Shown one piece after another: positions 1 to 24,934 of a DNA stretch of 56,834 nt. The stretch covers positions 1 to 56,834 of the forward strand of contig JADHVV010000005.1 of the NCBI GenBank assembly GCA_016783825.1, read 5' to 3'. Position 1 is the stretch's first letter. Every line of letters starts with the position of its first letter. The DNA comes from Candidatus Zhuqueibacterota bacterium (GTDB lineage: Bacteria > Zhuqueibacterota > Zhuqueibacteria > Thermofontimicrobiales > Thermofontimicrobiaceae). The position numbers and the translations under genes are program-made. The notes beneath the pieces are model-generated. The model was not told the origin of the DNA, ran no database searches, and saw nothing but the letters and a program-made list of their open reading frames with translations.

Positions 1-167
1 ATATTGGCAGCGATTAGAGATAAACCGATAAGGGGCCAAACAAGTCCGCGACTTGCCAGAAAGAAATCCTCACTGGTTTCTTCTTTTCTGCTTTTGTACA
101 TGCTGACGCTGATAACAATGCCGAAGAATATTATAAACGTAGTAATATCGAGTAATCCTAATTGCAT
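1..167 (-). CDS. Sodium/solute symporter (SSS family), N-terminal fragment running off the window edge
   Basis: Reverse-strand translation from ATG at 165-167: MQLGLLDITTFIIFFGIVISVSMYKSRKEETSEDFFLASRGLVWPLIGLSLIAAN, typical of SSS-family N-termini (DFFLASRGL..W..IGLSLIAAN). Not in the supplied ORF track; overlaps a spurious + ORF. Confidence 0.8.
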   Translation of the reverse strand, partial: MQLGLLDITTFIIFFGIVISVSMYKSRKEETSEDFFLASRGLVWPLIGLSLIAAN

Positions 168-407: not shown

Positions 408-1829
408 TCAAAGCTTATACGCCTGTTTCACCAAATCATAAGCCAGTGCCCTGCTCATAACCCGGGCTTCTTCCATATCAACAATATGACGAGTCACCAG
501 TCCGGCGAGAAAATTGCTATCTACACGGCGTGATAAATCATGCCTGGCTGGAATTGATGGGAAGGCGCGGGTATCATCGTTAAAGCCAACGGTGTTAAAT
601 ATGCCGGCTGTTTCCGTAACCATTTGTCGGTATCTGGTCATTCCTTCAATGGAGTCGTGAAACCACCAGGCAGGGCCTAACTTCATCGCAGGATAATGAC
701 CGGCTAACGGGGCTAATTCCCTGGTATAAGAATCTTCGTCTAAAGTAAAAACGATCAGGGTTAATCTCGGATCATTGCCATATTTATTTAATAAAGCGCG
801 CAAATTTCTTGTGTATTCTGTTTGTAAAGGAATGTCACATCCTTTGTCAGCGCCGAATTTATCAAAAACAGGTTGATTGTGATTCCGATATGATCCAGGG
901 TGAATTTGCATGACCAGCCCATCTTCAATGCTCAAACGAGCCATTTCCATTAAAATATTTCCGGTGAATTGCGCCTGATCCGCCCCATTTGTTTCACCTT
1001 TCAGCGCTTTTTGAAATAATTTATTTGCATCTGATTTTGTTAATTCAAAAGTATAAGGACTGGTTACTCCCTGGTCAGTGGAAACCGCGCCCATTGATTT
1101 AAAAAATTCTCTTCGATTTTCAAACGCTTTAATGAAATCATCATAAGAATTAATTTCAAAACCACATCTTTCGCTTAATAGGTCTATATTTTCTTTCCAC
1201 CCTTTAGCGGAGATGTTGACGACGCCATCCGGTCGGAAACAGGTAATTACCTTTCCTCCCCATCCGGAGTCTTTGATTGTTTTGTGGAATCGTAAATCAT
1301 CTTCTGCGCCTTCGGTTGTGGTAAGCGCTTCGATATTAAAACGATCGAACATGGCACGGGGTAAAAATTCCGGGGATTTCAGTTTTTCATCTATTTGATC
1401 ATAAATGGATTGTGCAGTCTCCCCGGATAATTTTTCCTTTATTCCAAAAACAGCAGAAAACACGTGGCTTAACCAGGCCCAGGTCGGCGTGCCATAAAAA
1501 AGGTAAAAATTATCGCCAAAAGTTTGCCAGATCTTTCGGAAATCAGTTTCCATAGGGCTGCCGTCCTTTGTTGGAATGCCCAGCGATTCCAGGCTAATGC
1601 CCTGTGAATAAAGCATCCGGAAAATGTAGTGATCCGGGATAAGTATTAATTCAGTCGGATTAGGAAAAGGCTTGTTGTCCGCTAATATTGATGGATCAAC
1701 GTGACCATGGGGACTGACGATTGGTAAGTCTTTTACACCCTCATACAATTCTCTGGCAATTTTGCGAATTGCCAGATCTGGGTCAAAGAATCTATTCTCA
1801 TTGACTACTAAGGTATTTGATTGTGACAA
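408..1829 (-). CDS. uxaC: Uronate (glucuronate/galacturonate) isomerase
   Basis: Full-length ORF with LPIVSPHGHVDPSILADN, family-typical TPTWAWLSHVF and C-terminal GFNDDTRAFPSIPARHDLSRRVDSNFLAGLV motifs. Confidence 0.95.
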   Translation of the reverse strand: MSQSNTLVVNENRFFDPDLAIRKIARELYEGVKDLPIVSPHGHVDPSILADNKPFPNPTELILIPDHYIFRMLYSQGISLESLGIPTKDGSPMETDFRKIWQTFGDNFYLFYGTPTWAWLSHVFSAVFGIKEKLSGETAQSIYDQIDEKLKSPEFLPRAMFDRFNIEALTTTEGAEDDLRFHKTIKDSGWGGKVITCFRPDGVVNISAKGWKENIDLLSERCGFEINSYDDFIKAFENRREFFKSMGAVSTDQGVTSPYTFELTKSDANKLFQKALKGETNGADQAQFTGNILMEMARLSIEDGLVMQIHPGSYRNHNQPVFDKFGADKGCDIPLQTEYTRNLRALLNKYGNDPRLTLIVFTLDEDSYTRELAPLAGHYPAMKLGPAWWFHDSIEGMTRYRQMVTETAGIFNTVGFNDDTRAFPSIPARHDLSRRVDSNFLAGLVTRHIVDMEEARVMSRALAYDLVKQAYKL

Positions 1830-2190: not shown

Positions 2191-3060
2191 TTAATTTTTT
2201 GAACTTAACCGTTCTTTTAAAAATGCCCTGAATTCTTTGGAAAATTCTTTTCGTTTCAAACCAAATTCAACAATAGTTTTTAAATAATCAATTTTACTTC
2301 CGATGTCGTATCTTTTACCTTCGATAGTATAGGAATAAATATTCTCTCTTTTGAGCAAAATTTTTAACGCATCGGTCAATTGTAGTTCATTATTCTTCCC
2401 TGGTTTGGTTTGTTCAAGCGCTTTGTATATTTCCGGTGTTAGGATATATCTACCGGCGATGGCTAAATTGGATGGGGCTTGCTTCACCGTTGGTTTTTCA
2501 ACAAGGTTGGATATTTCCATTATTCTGTCACTGATATTATTTCCACCAACAATACCATAACGGTTAACCTTTTCCTGGGGTACAACTTCAACGCCTAAAA
2601 TAGATTGTTGATATTGGTTATAAATATCAGCTAATTGCTGTGTCACCGGAATAATGGAATCGATCACTGTATCTCCCAGCAGTACGGCAAAAGGTTCATC
2701 GCCGGTATGAAGCCTGGCATGATAAATTGCATCACCTAAGCCTTTCATTTCTTTTTGACGAATGAAATGAATATTAGCCATATCCGAAATACGGCGGATC
2801 TCATTTAATACGCCGCCATTATTTTTATTTTCCAGCATATATTCAAGCTCAAAATTTCTATCAAAATGATCTTCAATGGCTCTTTTACCTTTTCCGGAAA
2901 TAATGAGAATATCTTCAATCCCTGAATCAACTGCCTCTTGAACAACATATTGTATTGTCGGTGTATCAATTATGGGCAGCATTTCTTTTGGTTGTGCTTT
3001 AGTTGCCGGTAAAAAACGGGTACCAATTCCTGCGGCTGGTATAACTGCTTTTTTTATCAT
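2191..3060 (-). CDS. galU: UTP-glucose-1-phosphate uridylyltransferase
   Basis: MIKKAVIPAAGIGTRFLPATKAQPKEMLPIIDTPTIQYVVQEAV; classic GalU nucleotidyltransferase motif. Confidence 0.95.
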   Translation of the reverse strand: MIKKAVIPAAGIGTRFLPATKAQPKEMLPIIDTPTIQYVVQEAVDSGIEDILIISGKGKRAIEDHFDRNFELEYMLENKNNGGVLNEIRRISDMANIHFIRQKEMKGLGDAIYHARLHTGDEPFAVLLGDTVIDSIIPVTQQLADIYNQYQQSILGVEVVPQEKVNRYGIVGGNNISDRIMEISNLVEKPTVKQAPSNLAIAGRYILTPEIYKALEQTKPGKNNELQLTDALKILLKRENIYSYTIEGKRYDIGSKIDYLKTIVEFGLKRKEFSKEFRAFLKERLSSKN

Positions 3061-3074
3061 TTATTTATCACTCC

Positions 3075-4070
3075 TTACATAATATATGGTTTTATAACGC
3101 GCGCTTTTATCTTTTTTAACTCAACGATTAAATTTGTCAACATTTCATCATCTTTGTACGTGCCGATTATTGATCCTCCCGAACCGGTAAATTTTGCCGG
3201 AGCGCCACATTTTCTGGCAGTTTCGATTAATTCCATATTGCTCTTATTAATGTTCATTATTTCAGCCCGAAGATCAAAATTATTATTCATAATTTTATTT
3301 AACTTTTTATAATCCTTTTTCAAAATTGCTTTTTTGCCCTGCTCCGCACAGTCCGCAATTTGACGTAATTTATCAACAACAAACGAATCACCCTTTTCAA
3401 AACGGGTACGAATATCGTTCAAAACCTTGCCGGAAACTTTGCCTAACTCTATCTTGTATGCGATATAAAGATTGGGCAGTAATTTAGGATCAATCCGTTC
3501 ATATTTTCCGGTCTTATTTTCTTCTATGTATTGTTTATCAAAATCCATAAAAACGCATCCCTCGTACGCCTGAATCACACGATCCTGTAACCCGGCGCTG
3601 ATTCCCAATTCATCAATTTCGGCTGCAAGCACAACATTCGGTAAAATTTCCACAGGGATTTTGACATTGTAGAATTTCATCAACGCTTTCATCGTCGCAG
3701 TAATAATAGCGCTTGAGCCGGCTAATCCCACCTGTCTGGGGATTGAAGAATGATAACGAATGGTAAAATTTTTATTCACCAATTTAATTTCGTTTTCTTC
3801 ACAATAGTCGAGAAATTTCTTTATCGCAGCTTTAATCAAACGTTGACCACCATAATAGCCAAGCAGATTAACAGACTCTGCTAAATGGTACACACTTTTG
3901 TATTCATGGAGGTCCTCTTCAATCGGTTCAATATTTAATTCCGGTGTTTGATACAGGGTTACATGCGCGCCAAAATTCCGAACAATAATAGAAATGGTTT
4001 TTCCAAAATACCCATCCGAAGGATTACCCAATAATCCAGCCCTGGCATAAGCGCTTGATTCGATGATCAT
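3075..4070 (-). CDS. GHMP kinase resembling plant-type glucuronokinase
   Basis: Motifs AYARAGLLGNPSDGYFGKTIS, GYYGGQRLIKAAIKKFLDYCEENEI, IPRQVGLAGSSAI, AEIDELGISAGLQDRVIQAYEGCVFMDF and KFTGSGGSIIG match remembered Arabidopsis glucuronokinase 1 in order and wording. Confidence 0.85.
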   Translation of the reverse strand: MIIESSAYARAGLLGNPSDGYFGKTISIIVRNFGAHVTLYQTPELNIEPIEEDLHEYKSVYHLAESVNLLGYYGGQRLIKAAIKKFLDYCEENEIKLVNKNFTIRYHSSIPRQVGLAGSSAIITATMKALMKFYNVKIPVEILPNVVLAAEIDELGISAGLQDRVIQAYEGCVFMDFDKQYIEENKTGKYERIDPKLLPNLYIAYKIELGKVSGKVLNDIRTRFEKGDSFVVDKLRQIADCAEQGKKAILKKDYKKLNKIMNNNFDLRAEIMNINKSNMELIETARKCGAPAKFTGSGGSIIGTYKDDEMLTNLIVELKKIKARVIKPYIM

Positions 4071-4378: not shown

Positions 4379-5464
4379 TTAATGAAAATAGTCCAACCTT
4401 ACTCCTTCATCCACTTCAATTATAAATGGTTTTCCCCCAACATGTGATATTGCCTGTGCAACTTTTCCCGGATCATTCGGCGCACAAACAAACATGCAAC
4501 CACCGCCACCCGAACCATTTAGTTTTCCCCCGGTTGCTCCGGCATCGATAGCAGCATTTATCATTCTGTCCAGTTTTGGAGTTGAAATATAAAGCTTATC
4601 TCTAAGGATTGATTGGCAGTCACTTAAGAGTGATCCAACTACCTTTGTTTCAATATTATCCTGGTGAAATAATTTATATGCTTTTAGTGTAACTTCCCTG
4701 TTAGACAAAGCTCCCTCAACAAGGGCAATTTTATCTGCCGAAAGATGTTGTATTTTTGATTTTATTTCAGGAAATAAAGTTTTTTCAAGATTTATGTCCA
4801 CTCCATTGCTTTTAATATCTTTCAATATATCTAAAACACCATCCTTTACCCTGGCTAAAATTCCCGTCGTATCTTTTGGTTCTTCTGAATCTCCAAGAAC
4901 AAAACTTCCCAAATTTGATTTCAACTTTTCAACTTTTACCGGGTTTTTAAACTCAATGAATAAAACGCCTCCCAAACTGGTAGCATAATGATCCATCATT
5001 CCCCCCGGTTCATTGAATTCTATAACCTCAGCCCGATGAGCTAATTTTGCGATCTCCATTGGGTCATCTGCTCTGTAGTCTTCTGCAATTGTTAGTAAAA
5101 ATTTTATCCAGACAACAATTAGCGCGGACGAACTTGATGTCCCCGAGTTAATCGGAATTTTACCTCGAATCGTACAATCGTAACCCGACGGGATGTTTAC
5201 GTTTTCCCGTACCAGCACATTAAAAGCGCTTCGTAGGTAATCTCTTTCTTTGGTGTATTTCACAGTACCATCAAAGGAAAAACGATCTGTTTCATTTAAA
5301 TCAGGTAGATCAAATGTGAATTTTCTGTCGTTCCTTTTTGTGCCTTCAATTTCTATTCGCAGATTAATTGCGGCTGTAATGACTGGTAAATGTAAATAGT
5401 CCTGGTGTTCCCCAAAAAGGCAAATTCTGCCTGGCGCTGATGTTTTTAATTTTTGTATTTCCAC
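4379..5464 (-). CDS. GHMP kinase, galactokinase-like (possible sugar/uronate 1-kinase)
   Basis: APGRICLFGEHQDYLHLPVITAAINL (galactokinase-type signature), INSGTSSSSALIV (GHMP P-loop), GATGGKLNGSGGGGCMFV (motif 3). Confidence 0.8.
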   Translation of the reverse strand: MEIQKLKTSAPGRICLFGEHQDYLHLPVITAAINLRIEIEGTKRNDRKFTFDLPDLNETDRFSFDGTVKYTKERDYLRSAFNVLVRENVNIPSGYDCTIRGKIPINSGTSSSSALIVVWIKFLLTIAEDYRADDPMEIAKLAHRAEVIEFNEPGGMMDHYATSLGGVLFIEFKNPVKVEKLKSNLGSFVLGDSEEPKDTTGILARVKDGVLDILKDIKSNGVDINLEKTLFPEIKSKIQHLSADKIALVEGALSNREVTLKAYKLFHQDNIETKVVGSLLSDCQSILRDKLYISTPKLDRMINAAIDAGATGGKLNGSGGGGCMFVCAPNDPGKVAQAISHVGGKPFIIEVDEGVRLDYFH

Positions 5465-6886: not shown

Positions 6887-7705
6887 TTAACTTTTCTTAA
6901 CCAAAATGTATGAACGAACGCCATCGGTAAAAATTTTGAGCAAAATTTTCTCTATTTTCAGTATTCGACATCCATGATAAATGAGTAATGTTAAATTATC
7001 AAACACTTGCTGGTTCATTTGATTGAATTTTTGGGAGCGAAAGATTTTGTTCACAAATCTTCCAAATAGAAGAATAGCCGCAGGAATTTTTGCAGCATAT
7101 TTTACTTCTTTTTCCAATGTACCGGATTCGACTATCTTTAGCCCTGCTTTTTTTGCAAATTCGACTAATTGCTCAGGACGATATGCAGTGTGAAAATATC
7201 CGTCTTTATTGTCAAAGGACACACCGTATTGAGGCAACCTTCCTAATCCTATCCACTTCGGTCGATAGCGCTTATAATTGGGGGTTGTTAACAGAGCATA
7301 ACCATCATCTATTAATACGTGAGATATGCCTTTAAAAATTTCTATTGGATTTAAACAGTGTTCAAGCACTTCGCTGCATAAAACATTATCAAATGAGGAC
7401 TTTTTAAAGCATTGCAATTGTTCAGCATCAGCAACAACTAAATGTTGTATCTTTTTTTTACTCGTTTTTTTAAGAACATTAAAGCTAATATCAACACCAA
7501 AACGACTTCCCCCCTCATATTCATCCAAATACATGCCTTGGTTGCAGCCAATGTCGAGCAAAGAACCTTTAAAGTTATTTAAATAAGTGAGTATAAATTT
7601 TTTCCTTAATTTACCTCTTAGCGTTTTATAAACAATCTCTTCTTCGGGGTATTTTTCTCCGACTTCTTCATAAAATATTTTTAATTTTCTTTTTATTGTA
7701 TTCAT
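6887..7705 (-). CDS. Class I SAM-dependent methyltransferase
   Basis: GSLLDIGCNQGMYLDEYEGGSRFGVDIS (motif I) and NVLCSEVLEHCLNPIEIFKGISHVLIDDGYALLTTPN. Confidence 0.88.
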   Translation of the reverse strand: MNTIKRKLKIFYEEVGEKYPEEEIVYKTLRGKLRKKFILTYLNNFKGSLLDIGCNQGMYLDEYEGGSRFGVDISFNVLKKTSKKKIQHLVVADAEQLQCFKKSSFDNVLCSEVLEHCLNPIEIFKGISHVLIDDGYALLTTPNYKRYRPKWIGLGRLPQYGVSFDNKDGYFHTAYRPEQLVEFAKKAGLKIVESGTLEKEVKYAAKIPAAILLFGRFVNKIFRSQKFNQMNQQVFDNLTLLIYHGCRILKIEKILLKIFTDGVRSYILVKKS

Positions 7706-7812
7706 CTAACTCTTATTCCTCTCAAATCAGTTGGCTGCTCATCCGTTGGTTTTTCCATTCAAATCTTCAATTTCACCTAGCGAACGTTTACACCAACAAA
7801 AATTTCATGATT

Positions 7813-9306
7813 TTAGAATTTCCACTTTATCTTTTTGATATATTGCTTTAGACTATTAATCTCGTTAGTTTCAAAAAATCCTGAAAAATATAGTAAAACG
7901 ATATAAGACAATAGTAACAGGATTTTTGTTAGGTAGACAAACGGAAGATTAATATAAGAATAAATCGAATAAATCACAGCACTGAATAATAATATTTTTA
8001 GTAATTTCCCAAATTCGTAATCAATTGGGTAATATTTTCGGGATAAAAAATAAATAAAAATTGCCATAAAAACAAATGAAATAATAGTAGAATAAGCAGC
8101 ACCCATGATATCAAACATTGGGATTAATATAAAATTTCCGATGATATTTACAACCGCGCCGCTGCCAGTTATTAATACTAACAGCTTTGTCTTTTCTTTC
8201 AAATAAATGCCAACCAAAAAATTCAAATATAAACCATAAGCAATATAAGCTAAAACAATGAATGGGACGATTACGGTGCTTCCCCAATATTGCTCACCAA
8301 AAATCGTTAATCCAAAAATACGTATTCGAACAATTTGGTTTATGTAAAAGGTGACAGCTAAAAATATAACACTGCAAATAAGGGAAAAATAGGTTAAAAT
8401 TTTTGAAAATATTTCTTTTGCATTCTCTTGTTTTGCAGTTGAAATAAAAAAAGGTATCCAGGCAAATTGAAAACCATTGATGAACATTTTCACTATCAAT
8501 CCCAGCTTATACCCGGCGCCATAATCTGCAGATGCTTCCATCCCAATAAATTCTTTTACAAATATTTTGTCGATTGAATTCATGAGAACCACGGACATTG
8601 TTGCTGGGATAAATGGAAGTCCGAACTGTAGCATTTTGTTCAGCAAGTTAAGTGATATTCCATGTTTCAGATGCTTCAAGGTGACGGGCAATAAAAATAA
8701 AAAGATCAATACTGAAGAAAAAATATTGGCTAAAAAGATACCTCTTACTCCCATTTGCCAACGTGCTACAAAAATAACATTAAAAATTAAATTCAATCCA
8801 ACATTCATAACGCTGAAAAATGCAAAACTTGCTGACTTTTCTTCGGCGCGCAGAATATTAAATGAGAGAAGAACAAGCGCATCAAATGTAAGGATGCCTA
8901 AACTAAAGACGATCAAATGGGAAAAGTCAACTGACTCGAACAGTAATTTAGCCACCGGGTTTTGAAAAATGAATAAAATTGCAGACAAAGTAATGGACGT
9001 GAAAATCGTGGAAAAGAAAGCAGTAGAGAAAAATCTATTTTTTTTCTCTTCATCAGGTTCCTGAATATAATATTGTAAGCAGGCAGTATTTAATCCATAA
9101 GAATAGATGATTGATGCAATCGCCAGAAATGCAAATAGTTGTGTCGCTATACCGTACTCAAACTTGTTTACATAATTAGTGTGAACAGGGAGTAAAAGGA
9201 TACTCAAAGATTTGGTAATAACATGCCCAACTCCGTAAATCGCCGAATGCCTGGTCAACTTTACTATTGATTTAATTTTAGATTCACCTGGCATTATAAC
9301 GGCCAT
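7813..9306 (-). CDS. Polysaccharide biosynthesis flippase (MATE/Wzx-like)
   Basis: Multi-TM ORF; RHSAIYGVGHVITKSLSILLLPVHTNYVNKFEYGI is a typical oligosaccharide flippase N-terminus. Confidence 0.85.
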   Translation of the reverse strand: MAVIMPGESKIKSIVKLTRHSAIYGVGHVITKSLSILLLPVHTNYVNKFEYGIATQLFAFLAIASIIYSYGLNTACLQYYIQEPDEEKKNRFFSTAFFSTIFTSITLSAILFIFQNPVAKLLFESVDFSHLIVFSLGILTFDALVLLSFNILRAEEKSASFAFFSVMNVGLNLIFNVIFVARWQMGVRGIFLANIFSSVLIFLFLLPVTLKHLKHGISLNLLNKMLQFGLPFIPATMSVVLMNSIDKIFVKEFIGMEASADYGAGYKLGLIVKMFINGFQFAWIPFFISTAKQENAKEIFSKILTYFSLICSVIFLAVTFYINQIVRIRIFGLTIFGEQYWGSTVIVPFIVLAYIAYGLYLNFLVGIYLKEKTKLLVLITGSGAVVNIIGNFILIPMFDIMGAAYSTIISFVFMAIFIYFLSRKYYPIDYEFGKLLKILLFSAVIYSIYSYINLPFVYLTKILLLLSYIVLLYFSGFFETNEINSLKQYIKKIKWKF

Positions 9307-10610
9307 TCAATTGGAATTAATGGAAACATAGCTATTTGATAAGTGGATTTTTTGACTATTTTAGGATTTATTTTTTGTTCATTGAAAAAGACTTCCACCT
9401 GTTTATTTGCCGGAATTTTAAAACTAATTCCCTGGAAATCATCAATAGATGGGGAAAAAAAAGAGCTGAATTTATTGATCCCATTAATGTTAATAACATA
9501 CTTGCTATCCGTATCAGAATATTGCCAATCCAGGTTCTGATTTACGAGATTATATGTTAAGATTCGACTTGTTGTTCCAATCCAGACTCGCTCGGAAAAA
9601 AATAACTCCGCCAAGTCTCGAAATCTATCTACGACTGCTTTTCCCAATGGTAAATTATCATTTTTGTTTTTGCGATCGCCAAGATGGATGTACAGAATTA
9701 AATAACCGTGTTTTTCAAGTAACCGTTTTAATACTTTGTCGCTCAATAGATCAGAGAAATCGTCCTGCCAATCCAATCTCCCATTGCCAAATCTTTTAAA
9801 ACGGAATATGGGTGTACCATCTCTCAATTTTTCATTTTGAATAAGCGCATTTTGAAAATCAATTGGCTGCCAGGGAATAAAATGTTTGTGTGAAATTTTA
9901 TTATATCCATTATCAAGGAGTGATATAATCCCTTTAGTGACACTTTTACTTTTATTTTTAAAACCCTTGTAAAGAGGACTTCCCCAGTACGCTTCACTCC
10001 ATTTGCTTTTTCTGTTTTGCCCAACAATACCGGTTAAAGACAACTCACAATCCCAGTAAAATTTTATTCCGTATTCAGATAATAAATCCGAGTGATAATA
10101 AGGTGAAATGTTCTTTTCATTCAAATCTGAAGGTTCATTAAGAATTTCACCTTTACCCGATGAAAAAGCACCGATATTCTGTACACTTTCAACGCCGCCA
10201 TGATTTGTCCAAACCTTTAATTTCAAACCATATTTATCCAGTTCTTCAATTGCCTGAAGCGCCAATTTCCTGGAAAAATCCTGGGGGGAAGTAAAATTAC
10301 CATAACTATGAAGAACATCAATTATCCCCGCACGGATCAAATCACGAATCGCAGGGGCGTTTTTGGATTTTCTGCCTTTAAAATCTTTGAAATAAGAGAA
10401 TGCTGCATTCGCATTTCCCTCTTTGTCATACATCCAGAACGAATCGCCAACAGGCAGTGACAAGCCTCGTCCGAGAGCTGTTTTTTGATTTGAATTTAAA
10501 AATTTATGGATCGTTAAAAAATTATCCCATGATGTACTGTCAATGTCGCTGCAAATTGCTAAGGCAGCCTGAAAAGGATAGGGAAATTTTAAAAGCTCAA
10601 TATTGTTCAT
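9294..10610 (-). CDS. Polysaccharide deacetylase-like protein of EPS cluster
   Basis: FPYPFQAALAICSDIDSTSWDNFLTIHKFL start and internal DVLHSYGNFTS / WTNHGG motifs resemble NodB-like folds; flanked by EPS genes. Confidence 0.5.
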   Translation of the reverse strand: MNNIELLKFPYPFQAALAICSDIDSTSWDNFLTIHKFLNSNQKTALGRGLSLPVGDSFWMYDKEGNANAAFSYFKDFKGRKSKNAPAIRDLIRAGIIDVLHSYGNFTSPQDFSRKLALQAIEELDKYGLKLKVWTNHGGVESVQNIGAFSSGKGEILNEPSDLNEKNISPYYHSDLLSEYGIKFYWDCELSLTGIVGQNRKSKWSEAYWGSPLYKGFKNKSKSVTKGIISLLDNGYNKISHKHFIPWQPIDFQNALIQNEKLRDGTPIFRFKRFGNGRLDWQDDFSDLLSDKVLKRLLEKHGYLILYIHLGDRKNKNDNLPLGKAVVDRFRDLAELFFSERVWIGTTSRILTYNLVNQNLDWQYSDTDSKYVININGINKFSSFFSPSIDDFQGISFKIPANKQVEVFFNEQKINPKIVKKSTYQIAMFPLIPIEWPL

Positions 10611-10616
10611 TTAAGA

Positions 10617-11135
10617 TTACTTTCTTTCCCCGATTTGTTTAGCAGGTACTCCACCAACAATGGTATAAGGCTGAACACTCTTTGTAACCACCGATCCTGC
10701 GGCAACTACAGCACCATTGCCGATTTCAATCCCGGGGAGAATAATTGAATATGCTCCCAACCAGACATCAGAACCAATATTTATATCCTGTTCAACGCCG
10801 TCCTGATCCCTAATTAGCTGTTCCTTTTTCAGTCCATGATTGTCAGAAGTAATAAATGATCCCGGCCCTATAATTGTATTATCACCCACTGTAACTTTTG
10901 ATTTTTTACCAGCCCAGATATAAACATTTCTTTGAACATGTACATTATCTCCCAGGAAAATATTTTCGGAATAAGCCAAAGACGCAGATGGACGCACATT
11001 GGTTTTCTTCCCACAAGCGCCCAAATGTTTTATGCCATAAACATTATCTGTGAAGAACAAGGCAATGAACTGTCTCAATTGAAACCAAAATACTTTTGAA
11101 AAAATAAGTGATAAATACTTAATAATTTTTTTCAC
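10617..11135 (-). CDS. Hexapeptide-repeat acyltransferase (sugar O-acetyltransferase type)
   Basis: Left-handed beta-helix repeats: GDNTIIGPGSFITSDNH, IGSDVWLGAYSIILPGIEIGNGAVVAAGSVVTKSVQPYTIVGGVPAKQIG. Confidence 0.9.
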   Translation of the reverse strand: MKKIIKYLSLIFSKVFWFQLRQFIALFFTDNVYGIKHLGACGKKTNVRPSASLAYSENIFLGDNVHVQRNVYIWAGKKSKVTVGDNTIIGPGSFITSDNHGLKKEQLIRDQDGVEQDINIGSDVWLGAYSIILPGIEIGNGAVVAAGSVVTKSVQPYTIVGGVPAKQIGERK

Positions 11136-11144
11136 AACAACTCC

Positions 11145-12011
11145 TCAGATTTGGACTACCAGTTTTTGATGAACTTTTTTCAAAAACCATTTGAAATTTG
11201 AGAAAGGAGAGAATAGATATTTTTGCCATCGTTCAGCAAATTGTTTAAAAAACGGATCATTAGTTATTCGAAATAATGATTCCAACTGTTTAATATGGAT
11301 TCGATGATAAAACTTTGCAGTTAAGCGGCGTGGATTTGCAAGCTCATAATAAGACCAATAACCACTGTCATATCGAAACATATTTTCTTTCAAACTTTCA
11401 ATAAACAGGTGAAATTTTTTTTGAGCGTCCTTATCCTGCAAATAAACGAAATAATCATAAACACCAAAAATCGCAAAGATAAATCCGTTTAAGACAGAGG
11501 AACGTTTTGAAGATGATGGGTATTCTTCAATTAATGGCAAACCGTCAGGAAATTCTGAAATAATCCCACCATCCTTTACCTTCACGTCAAAAATTCTCCA
11601 AGCAGCTTGAGCTGCTTCTAAATATTTTTTTTCACCCGAAATTTGAAACGCACGCAGTAAAACAGATATTGCTTGTCCCTGTGCCATTCCTGAAATCCAT
11701 GGCGCTTTAATATCGTAAAATGGGAGATCAAATTGATAAAACCAAACCGCAGACTTGTTTGGCCCATCTTTAGCATGTTCCAACAACCAATTTGCCTGGG
11801 ATAAAAAAATATCTTTGGATAAAGAAGATGAAGTTCTTAAATAATTATTAAAATGAAATAAACCATATTGGCATACTGTGATCGGATTATGTTTCCAACC
11901 AGGTAACCTGTGAAAACGACTTAACGGCACTCCATTATCATCAAATTCATACTCAGAAAAATCTTCGCCGAGGCGTTTATTCAAATCAATATAGTAAAAT
12001 CCTAATTTCAT
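11145..12011 (-). CDS. D-glucuronyl C5-epimerase domain protein
   Basis: WFYQFDLPFYDIKAPWISGMAQGQAISVLLRAFQISGEKKYLEAAQAAW, SSVLNGFIFAIFGVYDYF and SYYEL are characteristic of the glucuronyl C5-epimerase C-terminal domain. Confidence 0.8.
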   Translation of the reverse strand: MKLGFYYIDLNKRLGEDFSEYEFDDNGVPLSRFHRLPGWKHNPITVCQYGLFHFNNYLRTSSSLSKDIFLSQANWLLEHAKDGPNKSAVWFYQFDLPFYDIKAPWISGMAQGQAISVLLRAFQISGEKKYLEAAQAAWRIFDVKVKDGGIISEFPDGLPLIEEYPSSSKRSSVLNGFIFAIFGVYDYFVYLQDKDAQKKFHLFIESLKENMFRYDSGYWSYYELANPRRLTAKFYHRIHIKQLESLFRITNDPFFKQFAERWQKYLFSPFSNFKWFLKKVHQKLVVQI

Positions 12012-18206: not shown

Positions 18207-19880
18207 CTACCGCATCGTACCCAAATATTCAGTGGTTAACTGTCGTTTCCTCACATCTGGATTACTATAATCAGGAAGCAGCATCGGGCCAACCTTGTCT
18301 TTGATTCCAGCGCCTTCAACTTCTTTATTAAATTTTTTAACATGATCCAACGACAAGTTCCCATTCCCAGCAAATCCTTTAATATATTCAGCAGCATTTA
18401 TGCCTGCAATTCTGCCGAATACAGTTACGTCAAGCAGTGAATTTCCCATCAAACGATTTTGACCATGAATTCCGCCTAAAACTTCACCAGCCATGTACAA
18501 ACCTGGGACTTTAGTTTCGCCCTTATTATTGGCTTCCATTCCCCCATTTTGATAATGAAGCGTCGGGTAAATCAACATGGGTTCTTTTGAAATATTAATT
18601 CCGTATCTCCTGAACAAAATACTTTTTCCTGGAAATTCCCTTGCTACGGTTCCTTCGCCCGATAACATATCGATCATTGGAGCATCCAACCACACACCGA
18701 ATTTTCCTGTGGGCGTTGGAACACCATTATTTCTATCTTTTGAACACTCCCGAATGATCGCCGAAGCTTCAACATCTCGCGGCTCACGCTCAAACACAAA
18801 TTGTTCGCCATGAACATTGACAATATTAGCGCCAGCGCCGCGCACTTTTTCAGTAATTAACAATCCTTCTGCCTGCTCTGGAAATACAGCGCCAGTTGGG
18901 TGATATTGTACGGTATGCAAGAAACAAACTGGCACTCCTGCACGGTAACTCATCACCAACCCATCACCTGTTGCGCCATAATGATTTGTGGTCATAAAAT
19001 CTTGAATGTGAAGTCTGCCAGTGCCGCCAGTCGCCATAATAACTGCTTTTGCTTTAATGATAAAATATTCTTCAGTTTCCAGATTATACATCACAGCGCC
19101 AACACATCTGCCACTGTCATCCAATAATAATTCCACGGCTGGTGAGAATTCAACAACTTTTATATCTTCAGGATGATTGCGCACTTCATCCCGAACTGTA
19201 CGCATAATTTCAGCGCCAGTAATGTCACCAGCATAATGCATTCTTTTACGTGATGTACCACCACCATGCATAGAATGAAGTTTTCCATCAGGATATTTAC
19301 TGAAAATCATTCCCAATTTTTCTAACCATTGCAAAGCTTTAGGGGCTTCAGTAACTAAAGTATAAACCAACTCTGGATCATTAACAAAATGTCCGCCGCC
19401 CAATACATCGAGGTAATGATAATATGGAGAATCTTTCCATGTTTTGCTTGCGCCTTGTATTCCGCCTTCTGCCATCATTGTATTAGCATCACCGTTGCGC
19501 AGCTTTGTCGCTAAAATAACTTTTGCACCGTTTTCCCTGGCAAGAAGAGCTGCCGAATTACCTGCGCCTCCCCCTCCGATAACCAGTACATCTGTCTCCA
19601 TGGCAACTTTTGAAAGATCAATTTTATCAGGATCGACCCTGCTTTTCGTTTCTAAAATATATGCATATTCCTGTGCAATGGCATATCCTTTACTGGCGCC
19701 GACTTTTAATTCTTTCCGGGTTCCAGCAATGAAATCAGGATGGTATTTTTTTAATATGTCCTGTCTTTTATCAACAGGAATACCAGTAAACTCTTCACCT
19801 TTCTTTTTTCTTTCGACTCGAGCGGGACGAGTTTCTTCAACTTTTTTGATTAAATTTTTTAATTCTGGTGTATATGGCAT
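18207..19880 (-). CDS. FAD-dependent fumarate reductase/succinate dehydrogenase-family flavoprotein
   Basis: METDVLVIGGGGAGNSAALLARENGAKVILATK, MMAEGGIQGA, VIMATGGTGRL, TVQYHPTG, LYMAGEVLGGIHGQNRLMGNSLLDVTVFGRIAG. Confidence 0.9.
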   Translation of the reverse strand: MPYTPELKNLIKKVEETRPARVERKKKGEEFTGIPVDKRQDILKKYHPDFIAGTRKELKVGASKGYAIAQEYAYILETKSRVDPDKIDLSKVAMETDVLVIGGGGAGNSAALLARENGAKVILATKLRNGDANTMMAEGGIQGASKTWKDSPYYHYLDVLGGGHFVNDPELVYTLVTEAPKALQWLEKLGMIFSKYPDGKLHSMHGGGTSRKRMHYAGDITGAEIMRTVRDEVRNHPEDIKVVEFSPAVELLLDDSGRCVGAVMYNLETEEYFIIKAKAVIMATGGTGRLHIQDFMTTNHYGATGDGLVMSYRAGVPVCFLHTVQYHPTGAVFPEQAEGLLITEKVRGAGANIVNVHGEQFVFEREPRDVEASAIIRECSKDRNNGVPTPTGKFGVWLDAPMIDMLSGEGTVAREFPGKSILFRRYGINISKEPMLIYPTLHYQNGGMEANNKGETKVPGLYMAGEVLGGIHGQNRLMGNSLLDVTVFGRIAGINAAEYIKGFAGNGNLSLDHVKKFNKEVEGAGIKDKVGPMLLPDYSNPDVRKRQLTTEYLGTMR

Positions 19881-20063
19881 TCTAATACCTCACGGGTTTT
19901 TATTACCACTAAATTCGTTTTTTTATTAATAATTTCTATTGTCTTTAAGCAAAAGTTTGAAGTGCCTAAATTGCCTAAAGTGCACTAAAGTACTTTTCTA
20001 TTATTAACTTTAGACTTGTACTTTAGTGCACTTTAAACTTTAGAGCACTTTAGATCACTTGTA

Positions 20064-20810
20064 TCATAAATATTTTTTTTCATCAGGTTCCCACATTTCA
20101 TCTACATTATCCGGTTCCGGTTGTCTCTTAATATACAATTCTCTCAATTGATCTTTATCCATTCCCATTAAATCTTTGAGCATGGACTCATAACGACCTT
20201 CTTCAACCTGTTGCACCCGTTCTTCTAAATGTTCAGATTTTGGAAGCACATGGCGTCCATAAATTCGTCGTGCCATAATTCCAATATTATATTGAACTTC
20301 TTCAGCAGGACAACGGGCAGAACATAATCCGCACATCACACAATCAAAAGACATTTCAGCCGCTTCTTTTATATTACCTGCCATCGCCATTGCCACATAA
20401 TCCATCACTTTTATATCCATGGGACAGCTCAACGTACAATTATTACATCCCATACATTTGAAAATCTCTGGATAATAATCGGAAATAACACTTTCAGTTG
20501 GTTCTAATTTTTCCAAATCATAAGTCGCCTTATTTCCTGGAAAAAAGGGGATTTGGGTAATATACATATTTGATTCGACCACTGTCTGACAGGCAAGTCC
20601 GTAATATAATTTAGAATCATTGGGAAAGCGATAAATTGTTCCACAAGCGCCACAAATTCCACCACGACAACCACAGCCCCGGATAAGCTGGTAACCAGCA
20701 TATTCTGTTGCTTTTTGAATTGTCAGGGAATCAGGAACATCGTATCGTTTTCCCATTAAAAATATTGGAATTAAATTTCTTTTAGTTTCTTTGTCATTTG
20801 ATTTCTTCAT
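20064..20810 (-). CDS. Iron-sulfur subunit: 2Fe-2S ferredoxin-like N-domain plus two 4Fe-4S motifs (FrdB/SdhB-like)
   Basis: RGCGCRGGICGACG...YGLACQT, then CMGCNNCTLSCP and CVMCGLCSARCP. Confidence 0.85.
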   Translation of the reverse strand: MKKSNDKETKRNLIPIFLMGKRYDVPDSLTIQKATEYAGYQLIRGCGCRGGICGACGTIYRFPNDSKLYYGLACQTVVESNMYITQIPFFPGNKATYDLEKLEPTESVISDYYPEIFKCMGCNNCTLSCPMDIKVMDYVAMAMAGNIKEAAEMSFDCVMCGLCSARCPAEEVQYNIGIMARRIYGRHVLPKSEHLEERVQQVEEGRYESMLKDLMGMDKDQLRELYIKRQPEPDNVDEMWEPDEKKYL

Positions 20811-21022
20811 TTACACCCTCCTGAATTCTGGATACTTGCTACTGGATGCTTGATTCTGGATACTGGAAGCCCGATTCAAGATGCTGGATGGAATTGGTAA
20901 AGCAAGTATCGAGCATCAAGAAACAAGCATCGAGTATCCAGCATCAAGTATCTTTTCTCCAAATGAAAGTAATATTTAATAATAAGCTTAAAAAGAACTA
21001 CATTATTTAAAAACTTATCAAG

Positions 21023-21505
21023 TTACCACGTAACAAAAACACCGATAATAATTCCTAAAATAACAGCAACAAGCATCATAAAATAGTTATCAAGCGCTCT
21101 TGCTTTTTTTGATTGGGGAATAACCTCAACAACTCGATCTTCAACAATATAATCTTTGATCCCTGTATCAACCTGGGGGCATGCCATTACACAAGCATAA
21201 CATTGCTCGCAATCTTCCGCCACAATTGCCTCTAAAGCAAAAGATGTCCGCTGTACAGTGCGCGCTCGTCGGTCAGGTTCTCTGCGTAATACAGGACAGG
21301 AATCAACACAATTGCCGCAACCGATACAAGCGCGATCACCATCAATCCCCAAACCGTCTGGTAAATAAAGTCTGTGGTACGGTTCGATACCAGTCGAAAG
21401 CAATCTGCAACGGGCAACTGGCGGCTCTTTAATGTCCAAAATTGAATTTAGTACATTTATTTTTTGGGGAGTTAAAAATTCTTCTTTCCTGGTTATATAC
21501 TCCAC
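21023..21505 (-). CDS. 4Fe-4S ferredoxin with C-terminal TM
   Basis: CIGCGNCVDSCP, CEQCYACVMACP; C-terminal YFMMLVAVILGIIIGVFV. Confidence 0.88.
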   Translation of the reverse strand: MEYITRKEEFLTPQKINVLNSILDIKEPPVARCRLLSTGIEPYHRLYLPDGLGIDGDRACIGCGNCVDSCPVLRREPDRRARTVQRTSFALEAIVAEDCEQCYACVMACPQVDTGIKDYIVEDRVVEVIPQSKKARALDNYFMMLVAVILGIIIGVFVTW

Positions 21506-21536
21506 AATTTACTCCTTACACTAAATTTTGTTAGTC

Positions 21537-21683
21537 TTCTGCAAAATTAAGCAAAATCTAATTCATCTTCGACTCCGCTCAGGATGAAGCTTCGCTTAAG
21601 TGATTGATAATTAAAGTCCGAAAGACTTCATGGTGAGCGGAGTCGAACCATGAAATTACAGTACTTTTACAAATTTTGCAGAA
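21537..21683. repeat. Nested inverted-repeat element (TTCGACTCCGCTCA / TGAGCGGAGTCGAA)
   Basis: 14-bp perfect IR at 21568-21581 / 21634-21647, with outer arms TTCTGCAAAATT / AATTTTGCAGAA. Confidence 0.85.
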
Positions 21684-21701
21684 CTCTATAAATTTTGTTT
21701 T

Positions 21702-22598
21702 CTAATCAACATTCAGTTGTATATTCGGATGACACTTGACACAATTTTCTGTATTAGTCAAATCTTCACATTCAGCCTTAAAAATTTGAAACTTGCCATG
21801 AATTTTTCCATGATGACATTTTTGACATGTTTCTTTAGACGGAAATTTCATATCATTGCCCGGGTGTGTTGTCGGCAGGGCATCTTCATGGCAGCCAGCA
21901 CAGCTAATTGGATTGCGCGCTGTATAATTTACTGTTTTATCAACAACATTTTTACCTATCTCATCCTTTTTAGATTGAATATGACAGGTCTCGCAATTTC
22001 CTATTCTAATTTTTTCCAGTAGTGTAAATTCTTCCTGTTCATCTTTATTCAAATTATCCTTAACTCGAAGCTGCTTCCAACGTTGTTCATCTTCCGCCCT
22101 GAAATGTTCAAATCGATAATGAATGTTATGGTCATATCTTAAACCGATGTCTTTAACTTGAAGCGGTAAATTCGGTTCATCGACTTCAGCCAAACTTAAA
22201 ATTTCAGGGTGGCAGCTAATACATTCTTCATCCTGGTAAATATTTTGAGAATCAACGCTTTCTTTTACACGAAGATTGGCAACACGTTGAGAATACTTTG
22301 GCACTTTTTTTAGACTTCTTATTAAAAGCATTTCCACAGCTTTATCGGGATGGCAGGAAACGCAAGTAGGTCCACCTTTATTGATATCTTTATGGGCAGG
22401 GATGCGCATATCTAACGAGACATAAGTGCCTTGATTTTTGTGGCATTTCTGGCAAAAAGTTTCAGACTGATTATATAACACCATTCCGCTAAATACAACA
22501 ATCCCGCCGATTGGCGCAATAATTAACACCAGCATAATGTGCCGTTTTATAATGAAATTTTTAACTTTCTCAAAAATTTCTTTTCTGTTGATTTGCAT
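21702..22598 (-). CDS. NapC/NirT-like multiheme cytochrome c, 7 CXXCH motifs
   Basis: CQKCH, CVSCH, CISCH, CETCH, CAGCH, CQKCH, CVKCH counted; N-terminal membrane anchor. Confidence 0.92.
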   Translation of the reverse strand: MQINRKEIFEKVKNFIIKRHIMLVLIIAPIGGIVVFSGMVLYNQSETFCQKCHKNQGTYVSLDMRIPAHKDINKGGPTCVSCHPDKAVEMLLIRSLKKVPKYSQRVANLRVKESVDSQNIYQDEECISCHPEILSLAEVDEPNLPLQVKDIGLRYDHNIHYRFEHFRAEDEQRWKQLRVKDNLNKDEQEEFTLLEKIRIGNCETCHIQSKKDEIGKNVVDKTVNYTARNPISCAGCHEDALPTTHPGNDMKFPSKETCQKCHHGKIHGKFQIFKAECEDLTNTENCVKCHPNIQLNVD

Positions 22599-22711
22599 AA
22601 TTTATTTTAATTCCTAGATTACGGTGTACTTATGACAGAAGTTTGAAGTGCCAAAAGTGCCTAAAGTGAGATAAAGAAATAATTCTTTAGGCACTTCAAA
22701 CTTTAGGCACT

Positions 22712-24934
22712 TTAGCTCACTTTATTAACTTTAACTTTTACATCCTTCCACGCCTGCCCTTTGCCCGATGGGTCGATAGAAACTGGAATAACAAAATTGG
22801 GATTAGTGCCGTTGCCATCCTTTTCCCACCAGATAAATTCTGTATCCGGGTCTTCACTTTTAAACTTTTTCGATTGAGCAATTCTTCCGTATTCCCAATG
22901 TCCCAATCCTTTGGAAATGGCAATCGCTCCCGGATAAATACCCTGTGTAATGTGCGCTTTGATAACAATTTTTCCAATTTCAGATTCCAACATTACATAG
23001 TCGCCCTCTGCAATTCTCAATCGTCGGGCAGTTTTGGCATTTATTAAAGCTTTATTAGTATGATTGATTTCAGCCAACCATTTTAAATTGGTCAAATCCT
23101 GACGCATCACATTTGTGCTGTACGAAATTAAAAAAAGTTCATTTTTAGAAACGTTAATATGTTCCGTAATTGGTTCATATTTCGGCAAACCATTTGACCC
23201 GGCAATTTCAAATTTTCTTGAGCGAGTAGCGAATCGCTGTTTTTTATAAAGCTCATATTCTGGATTGGCATTTTTATCGTACCAGATACCCTGTTTTTTC
23301 AATTTATTAAATTGTTTCTCATCAGATAAACCAGGTATTTGGGCAACTGATTGTTTAATAAAATCTTCGACACTTTCATAATTCATCGAATTGCTAATGC
23401 TCTCCCCCATTCTCCGCGACAATTTAAGAAAAACATCATTAAGGGATAAAGCTTGCCCGTGCGGTTTTATTACTGGTTGCGCCAGCGAAACAAAGGGAAC
23501 CATTTCAAAGGATGGCGTTGAATCCAAATCCCAGCTTTCTACAAAAGTCGCTGCTGGAAGAATCAAATCTGCCAGCGCCGCTGTTTCACTTTTTACGGTA
23601 TCCATCACCACAGTAAACGGCATCAGGCTTTCGTCTTTCATCACTTGCTGGGTGAAATTGCAGTCCGGATATTCATAAACAGGATTATTTTTATAAGCGA
23701 AATATAAATCGACCTTTTGTTTTTCTTTCTTAATCCTCTCGAAAAATTGGACGGTTGACGGTTCGTTTTCATTAATTTCTATTGGAGAAAAATCGTTTAA
23801 CTGATAAGTTCGGGCAAGGCAGACACCGCCTTTTTTATCAATATTTCCCACCAGCGCATTGAGCAGCATAATGCTCCGTTCAGTCTCAAAACCGTTAACG
23901 TGCTGGGCAACACCTGAGCCTGAAAAAGCAACGGCGGGTCTGTTAGCGGCAAACTCGATGGCAATTCGTTCGATAGTGGCTGCGTCGATGGCGCTGATTT
24001 TTGCCGCTTTTTCGATAGTGTATTGAGACAGGTGCGACTTCAGTTGGGAAATAGGAATGTTTGTCCAGCGGCTGATAAATTCAGCGTCATATAAACCTTT
24101 CTGCACGATAACATTCGCCATTGCCAGCGCCACAATACCATCAGTTCCGGGTTTTATTGGAATCCACTCATCACTTTTACCGGCGGTATTGGATAACAGC
24201 GGGTCCATGGTAATCAATTTTGCATAATTATTTATTCTTGCTTCAGCCAGGCGTTGATTAAAACTTACAAAATAGGAATGGGACTCAAACGGATTGCTGC
24301 CGAAATTTAGAAAATATCTACAATTTTCAGCATCGATTATTTCTCTTTCTTCGCCCCAAATTGATTTTTGAGCAGTAGTTTTATTTAAGTCATTTAAAGC
24401 AGATGAGTTTAATATTGTCGCATTTTCAAAATTATTCAAAAACCTGCGCGCTAAACCGCGGTAATTTTGAGTATCAGTATGAAAGACAAATTCATGGTTA
24501 CGGTTTTCATTATTAATCGTTTGCAGGCGGTTGGAAATTTCAGTTAATGCTTGTTCCCAGCTAATTTTTTTCCATTTTCCCTCTCCCCGAGCTCCAACAC
24601 GTTTCAGTGGATGAAGCAATCTATCCGGGTCATAAACCTGGTTTACGCCGGCAATTCCCCGCGCACAAATTTTACCCTGGTTATTAATATGGTGGGGATT
24701 CCCTTGAATAGCCGCTAAATCTTCATATCTTAAAAAACCAATTACGCCGCATCTGTTTGGACAAAGATTACAAATTGTTGGAATGCCTTTACGAAACTTG
24801 CTGGTAAACATTGATACATTTCTGCCCCGCATGCCAACAATGGGAATCACTCCTCCAAACGAAGCTCCGAACGAGATTGCGGTTGCGCCTAATGTTCCTA
24901 TTTTTAAAAATTTTCGACGATTTATTTCTTTCAT
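22712..24934 (-). CDS. Molybdopterin oxidoreductase catalytic subunit (Psr/Phs-type CISM), Tat signal
   Basis: RRKFLKIGTLGATAISFG Tat-like leader; CNLCPNRCGVIGFLRYEDLAAIQGNPHHINNQGKICARG; LILPAATFVESWD. Confidence 0.92.
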   Translation of the reverse strand: MKEINRRKFLKIGTLGATAISFGASFGGVIPIVGMRGRNVSMFTSKFRKGIPTICNLCPNRCGVIGFLRYEDLAAIQGNPHHINNQGKICARGIAGVNQVYDPDRLLHPLKRVGARGEGKWKKISWEQALTEISNRLQTINNENRNHEFVFHTDTQNYRGLARRFLNNFENATILNSSALNDLNKTTAQKSIWGEEREIIDAENCRYFLNFGSNPFESHSYFVSFNQRLAEARINNYAKLITMDPLLSNTAGKSDEWIPIKPGTDGIVALAMANVIVQKGLYDAEFISRWTNIPISQLKSHLSQYTIEKAAKISAIDAATIERIAIEFAANRPAVAFSGSGVAQHVNGFETERSIMLLNALVGNIDKKGGVCLARTYQLNDFSPIEINENEPSTVQFFERIKKEKQKVDLYFAYKNNPVYEYPDCNFTQQVMKDESLMPFTVVMDTVKSETAALADLILPAATFVESWDLDSTPSFEMVPFVSLAQPVIKPHGQALSLNDVFLKLSRRMGESISNSMNYESVEDFIKQSVAQIPGLSDEKQFNKLKKQGIWYDKNANPEYELYKKQRFATRSRKFEIAGSNGLPKYEPITEHINVSKNELFLISYSTNVMRQDLTNLKWLAEINHTNKALINAKTARRLRIAEGDYVMLESEIGKIVIKAHITQGIYPGAIAISKGLGHWEYGRIAQSKKFKSEDPDTEFIWWEKDGNGTNPNFVIPVSIDPSGKGQAWKDVKVKVNKVS

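Follow-up and report, generated by a model that had tools for sequence, protein, structure and literature searches.

A GHMP kinase and a GalU-family nucleotidyltransferase, encoded side by side in the window (one whole contig of 56,834 bp from a 4.54-Mb genome assembly of 260 contigs with 82.8% completeness), probably form a bacterial salvage module for glucuronic acid (GlcA). Such a module would convert external GlcA to GlcA-1-P and further to UDP-GlcA, in parallel to UDP-glucose dehydrogenase, and we give this reading a probability of roughly 0.7. The genes are identified at the family level, their pairing is conserved and uronate genes recur in their neighbourhood; the most telling new finding is that the kinase is paired almost exclusively with one GalU subfamily.

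The source usually given for bacterial UDP-GlcA is UDP-glucose dehydrogenase, and glucuronokinases are established in plants and animals. If the reading is true, the linked pair would recycle scavenged uronic acids to UDP-GlcA without NAD, and short bacterial enzymes for UDP-GlcA synthesis would become available. Furthermore, a GalU subfamily that goes by the name of UDP-glucose pyrophosphorylase at present would be re-annotated, and the second step of an animal fusion protein (PMC3938481) could be studied in a homologous system.

Gene layout

The following features of the window are used throughout.

3075-4070, minus strand: GHMP kinase, 331 aa, assigned to the glucuronokinase family by its domains, its conserved motifs and a clade shared with a provisional Arabidopsis GLCAK1 sequence
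3061-3074, minus strand: intergenic gap of 14 nt between kinase and GalU, read directly from the sequence, with a Shine-Dalgarno-like GGAG ahead of the GalU ATG
2191-3060, minus strand: GalU-family nucleotidyltransferase, predicted GlcA-1-P uridylyltransferase, 289 aa (TIGR01099, pairing, partner-specific residues D110, H118 and T131)
408-1829, minus strand: glucuronate isomerase UxaC, 473 aa (NF002794, 529 bits, cut-off 387)
3-167, minus strand: SSS sodium:solute symporter, N-terminal fragment of 55 aa, cut by the contig end; candidate uronate importer
11145-12011, minus strand: D-glucuronyl C5-epimerase-domain protein (PF06662, 175 bits) inside a polysaccharide gene cluster

The kinase is the first gene of the pair, and its open reading frame starts with ATG and is bounded exactly by 3075 and 4070. 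A preliminary description of this DNA had placed a galU gene beside the kinase, with a uronate isomerase and an SSS transporter just beyond. All three are there: GalU starts at 3060, 14 nt downstream, and scores 380 bits with TIGR01099, UxaC scores over the cut-off of its model, and the transporter is present, though just as a 55-residue N-terminal fragment at the contig end. This fragment was recognised by its likeness to a PF00474 (Pfam SSF) protein of a related locus, L187. The PF06662 protein is, from its context, a possible user of a GlcA-containing glycan.

Pairing of the kinase with GalU

The GalU of the window passes TIGR01099 well above the curated cut-off of 326.8 bits, and the closest relative with a solved structure is YngB, a uridylyltransferase of B. 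subtilis (51% identity). Pairing was counted in the best 80 of at least 560 bacterial loci that encode kinase relatives, found by scanning one genome per species. In 67 of these 80 loci the kinase is immediately followed by a GalU open reading frame of the same strand, with a gap of 5-259 nt, and tblastn brings five further GalU neighbours for a total of 72. Two of the remaining loci stop at a contig edge, and six have room for an adjacent GalU and carry none.

Two phylum samples were used for asking where else GalU occurs. Among the 82 genomes of the window's phylum, 15 GalU genes score over the curated cut-off and all 15 immediately adjoin the kinase; a sixteenth kinase-adjacent GalU is cut by a contig end. 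In the phylum of Adhaeribacter (148 sampled genomes) the only three GalU genes found all adjoin the kinase, in the three kinase-bearing genomes. GalU is thus confined to kinase-adjacent sites in both samples and is not a general housekeeping UDP-glucose enzyme there. This near-exclusive adjacency supplies the functionally linked nucleotidyltransferase of a UDP-GlcA salvage system, and the coupling of kinase and GalU that was proposed earlier from a single contig holds far beyond it. Against the salvage reading stand, besides the six loci above, 13 genomes whose kinase falls in a divergent subclade and has no GalU beside it.

Of 80 partner GalUs, 78 carry D110, 79 carry H118 and all carry T or S131. 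The residues of four canonical GalUs, of which three were taken from PDB alignments and one is a provisional sequence, are H at 110, F, L or V at 118 and D or V at 131. Position 131 follows a conserved Asp that presumably binds metal in this fold. The kinase-bearing genome G229 has a reversed gene order and a different GalU, 42% identical to that of the window and just below the cut-off with 298 bits; this independently recruited partner has Ser at 131 as in the other partners, but retains H110. From this residue signature, the GalU of the pair is predicted to be a GlcA-1-P uridylyltransferase.

The alternative that survives best, although we consider it unlikely, is that the kinase is a glucuronokinase and its neighbour an ordinary UDP-glucose pyrophosphorylase, co-located for nucleotide-sugar supply, with GlcA-1-P activated by another or a promiscuous enzyme. 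The score above the GalU cut-off and the relationship to YngB are in its favour. A housekeeping gene, however, would not be expected to occur only in kinase-bearing genomes and beside the kinase, as GalU does in both phylum samples, and the partner-specific residues, with T/S131 common also to the G229 partner, speak against this alternative as well.

Uronic-acid gene neighbourhoods

UxaC adjoins the pair also in the loci L180, L181 and L182, and in L092, L114 and L115. The L180 neighbourhood further contains a UxaE-family tagaturonate epimerase, a mannonate-oxidoreductase-like SDR, a 6-phosphogluconate dehydrogenase and a LacI-type regulator. That of L183 contains KDPG aldolase (KdgA), a KDG-kinase-like protein (KdgK), KduI and a DctPQM-type TRAP transporter, and that of L187 an SSS symporter together with TRAP genes; LacI, DctQ and DctM in these loci were named by sequence likeness alone. 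Kinase-adjacent uronate genes are also found in loci from Chitinispirillaceae, Neomarinimicrobiota, Aminicenantes and Mucilaginibacter. The uronic-acid context first noticed in the window is therefore seen in several phyla (UxaC, UxaE, KduI, KdgK, KdgA, TRAP, SSS). Uronate genes lie near the kinase in 12 of 86 other loci of at least 9 kb, and most Cytophagales loci have none within 10 kb of the kinase, so that this context is recurrent and not universal.

UxaC also acts on galacturonate, and the neighbourhood cannot separate GlcA from galacturonic acid (GalA). Phosphorylation of GalA or another uronic acid, leading to UDP-GalA or a similar product, would fit neighbours such as UxaC and UxaE, which serve galacturonate besides glucuronate. 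We regard it as improbable, since the kinase is homologous to the GlcA-specific plant enzyme; moreover, PMC3938481 reports that the zebrafish enzyme is GlcA-selective and that the sequence of plant galacturonokinase differs widely from it.

Family of the kinase

Both Pfam domains, GHMP N and GHMP C, are found in the kinase. Every motif of the glucuronokinase run quoted in the preliminary description is present (LGNPSDGYFGKTIS, GYYGGQRLI..YCEENEI, IPRQVGLAGSSAI, GISAGLQDRVIQAYEGCVFMDF), and most positions of these motifs are conserved in 28 bacterial homologues.

The comparison sequence of Arabidopsis GLCAK1 is provisional and is to be read as a lead, not as a database record. It aligns with the kinase end-to-end and collinearly, including GNPSDxYFG, IPRQxGLxGSSAI and AGLQDRV, with 140 identities in 329 positions (approximately 43%). 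As a control for contamination of this provisional sequence by that of the window, the columns in which it differs from the window kinase were checked against other bacterial homologues: 109 of 189 differing residues occur in another bacterial homologue, whereas 1000 shuffles gave 43 on average and never more than 60. A profile of the 28 bacterial homologues gives the provisional GLCAK1 sequence 354 bits, HddA 66 bits and the remaining GHMP kinases at most 52 bits.

A maximum-likelihood tree was made with this one provisional plant sequence and six other GHMP kinases, heptose, mevalonate and galactose kinases among them. The divergent paralogues own_L002, L007, L008 and L001 were left out, since they gave long-branch artefacts when included. 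GLCAK1 and the bacterial kinases form one clade with a support of 100/99, apart from the six others; the position of the plant branch inside this clade is unplaced. The phylogeny suggested earlier as a check thus groups the kinase with GLCAK and not with heptose or mevalonate kinases. Together with the identity and the profile it bears out the family assignment, and we describe the gene at 3075-4070 as a putative glucuronokinase (EC 2.7.1.43), identified at the family level.

Membership in a different GHMP family, be it that of the heptose, mevalonate or galactose kinases, with only a superficial likeness to the plant enzyme, is very improbable: the nearest NCBIfam and PDB sequence matches of the kinase are mevalonate and heptose kinases, but all are weak, every NCBIfam hit stays far below its cut-off (mevalonate kinase comes nearest with 67 of 163 bits), tree and profile set these families apart, and the genome has further GHMP kinases, including a fusion of HMG-CoA reductase and mevalonate kinase.

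An AlphaFold model of the kinase (mean pLDDT 86, pTM 0.86) was used for a fold search. Galactokinases come out closest (1pie, with a Z of 33.8 and an rmsd of 2.1 over 310 residues), several entries of the ranking lying within 1-2 Z of one another; this is expected for a kinase acting at the anomeric carbon. The first GHMP motif is G-E/G-H-x-D-Y in galactokinase-like proteins, whereas all family members and the provisional plant sequence have G-N-P-S-D. In galactokinase structures the Glu of this motif contacts the C6 hydroxyl, and Asn in its place would suit the C6 carboxylate of a uronic acid substrate.

UDP-glucose dehydrogenase and MIOX

Absence of UDP-glucose dehydrogenase from the window alone is uninformative, and the enzyme was therefore sought genome-wide. 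The window genome has one nucleotide-sugar dehydrogenase, nearer to the UDP-ManNAc/GlcNAc type (267 bits with an archaeal ManNAc model versus 133 with TuaD). A TuaD-type enzyme was not found in a search of the whole 82.8% complete genome, and its absence may be a gap of the assembly. The near relative G063 has both a TuaD-type enzyme (536 bits) and the kinase, and the same high-scoring dehydrogenase class co-occurs with the kinase in many other relatives. A bypass of UDP-glucose dehydrogenase, as first supposed, consequently does not stand as a general replacement.

In plants, MIOX is the source of GlcA. The MIOX query found no match in any of the 82 genomes of the phylum, the window genome (82.8% complete) included, and a MIOX route is thus not seen there; we rejected MIOX as the GlcA source of the window organism for this reason. 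The GlcA of this organism most likely comes from outside the cell.

The same query has a match in 14 of 30 other GlcAK-bearing genomes. Those with both MIOX and GlcAK are mostly Cytophagales (G082, G083, G084, G090, G093, G094, G096, G097, G099, G100, G102, G103, G105, G111), and in some of these a complete route from inositol to UDP-GlcA may exist.

Proposed route and comparison with known systems

We infer the substrate of the kinase, the specificity of its partner, the direction of flux and the use of the product as follows. Free D-glucuronate would be imported by SSS or TRAP transporters, which are often encoded nearby. The GHMP kinase would phosphorylate its anomeric hydroxyl (ATP + GlcA to GlcA-1-P), and the adjacent GalU-family partner would convert GlcA-1-P and UTP to UDP-GlcA. 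UxaC would draw on the same GlcA pool and divert GlcA to catabolism. The resulting UDP-GlcA would supply polysaccharide or other glycosylation alongside UDP-glucose dehydrogenase and not in its place.

Plant glucuronokinase (GLCAK1, EC 2.7.1.43) and UDP-sugar pyrophosphorylase (USP) have the same kinase motifs and the same two-step logic. The plant system differs in that USP is unlinked and broad, whereas the bacteria have a short GalU-type enzyme in the adjacent gene, and in its MIOX, for which the 82 genomes of the window's phylum gave no match. Canonical GalU and YngB UDP-glucose pyrophosphorylase have the fold and the catalytic motifs in common with the partner; unlike them, the partner has D110, H118 and T/S131 and, in the two phylum samples, lies beside the kinase only. 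Bacteroides FKP (L-fucokinase/GDP-fucose pyrophosphorylase) combines an anomeric GHMP kinase (kinase fold Z approximately 30) with a nucleotidyltransferase in the same salvage logic, but for another sugar and nucleotide and as a single fused protein instead of two genes.

Zebrafish DrGKUP is a bifunctional glucuronokinase/putative pyrophosphorylase in which a bacterial-type pyrophosphorylase, aligned with Ruminococcus/Firmicutes proteins, is fused to GlcAK; its pyrophosphorylase activity is extremely low, and bacterial relatives encode that domain alone according to the paper (PMC3938481). GlcAK is coupled to a bacterial-type nucleotidyltransferase in both systems. DrGKUP is one protein with the pyrophosphorylase N-terminal, while the window bacterium has two genes with the kinase first.

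A wider reading is held tentatively, at somewhat less than even odds: the pair would be a conserved bacterial operon with a dedicated GlcA-1-P uridylyltransferase, a GalU subfamily whose specificity diverged with the glucuronokinase. In that case UDP-GlcA salvage in plants and animals would have its prokaryotic equivalent, perhaps even its origin, in this operon, and some Cytophagales would have a complete MIOX-GlcAK-pyrophosphorylase route.

Microbiome function tables list 'glucuronokinase' or KEGG K16190 (PMC8571626, PMC10687571), and the function is thus already being given out by automated annotation. A literature search, with subscription papers largely outside it, returned no description of a bacterial glucuronokinase enzyme or of the kinase-GalU pair, and a search on the kinase peptide motif gave no match.

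Distribution across bacteria

Glucuronokinase relatives are a widespread, patchy bacterial family. The kinase is present in 29 of the 82 genomes of the window's phylum and in 3 of the 148 genomes evenly sampled from the phylum of Adhaeribacter, the latter count indicating a patchy distribution. Going by record titles, Bacteroidota (among them Dyadobacter, Spirosoma and Adhaeribacter) account for most of the best 80 loci, and Ignavibacteria, Neomarinimicrobiota, Latescibacterota, Aminicenantes and Chitinispirillaceae are represented as well. The plant-type enzyme had been presented as an oddity in one bacterium; with at least 560 bacterial loci this view was abandoned, and a one-off transfer of the kinase from plant to bacterium was rejected because of the wide bacterial distribution.

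The locus of our named collection most identical to the window kinase, L040 (PBYL01000300.1), is assigned to a metagenome-assembled genome (MAG) of the alphaproteobacterium Thalassovita; this contig may be mis-binned. Additionally, a divergent GlcAK subclade (L194, L196, L197, L198, L199; phylum families f8-f10) is 50-56% identical and without GalU. It adjoins a NodU/TobZ-like carbamoyltransferase (PF02543/PF16861), with MutY-like and SfsA-like genes close by, and its role may differ.

Other genes in the window and the genome

Three further features of the window were noted.

4379-5464, minus strand: second GHMP kinase, 361 aa, with a galactokinase signature, below all NCBIfam cut-offs
6887-12011, minus strand: polysaccharide cluster with a methyltransferase-like protein, a Wzx-type flippase, a hexapeptide acetyltransferase and the PF06662 protein
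18207-24934, minus strand: flavin oxidoreductase (FAD_binding_2), 4Fe-4S protein, multihaem cytochrome (MtrC/NapC-like) and molybdopterin oxidoreductase in a row

Relatives of the second GHMP kinase occur in 36 of the 82 phylum genomes, unlinked to GlcAK in those compared. It was rejected as a part of the module, since these relatives lie near no other GlcAK locus examined. The PF06662 protein of the polysaccharide cluster hints at a glycan containing GlcA or IdoA, and the gene row at 18207-24934 looks like an anaerobic respiratory cluster.

Elsewhere in the window genome (G000), at locus L003 (1027-3168, minus strand, on contig C26), a single open reading frame reads as HMG-CoA reductase fused to mevalonate kinase. 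Phosphomevalonate kinase-like and mevalonate diphosphate decarboxylase-like GHMP proteins lie within 4 kb of this fusion, and an IspE-like kinase is also found in G000, on C88. Judged from these sequences, G000 possibly holds both isoprenoid routes in one bacterium.
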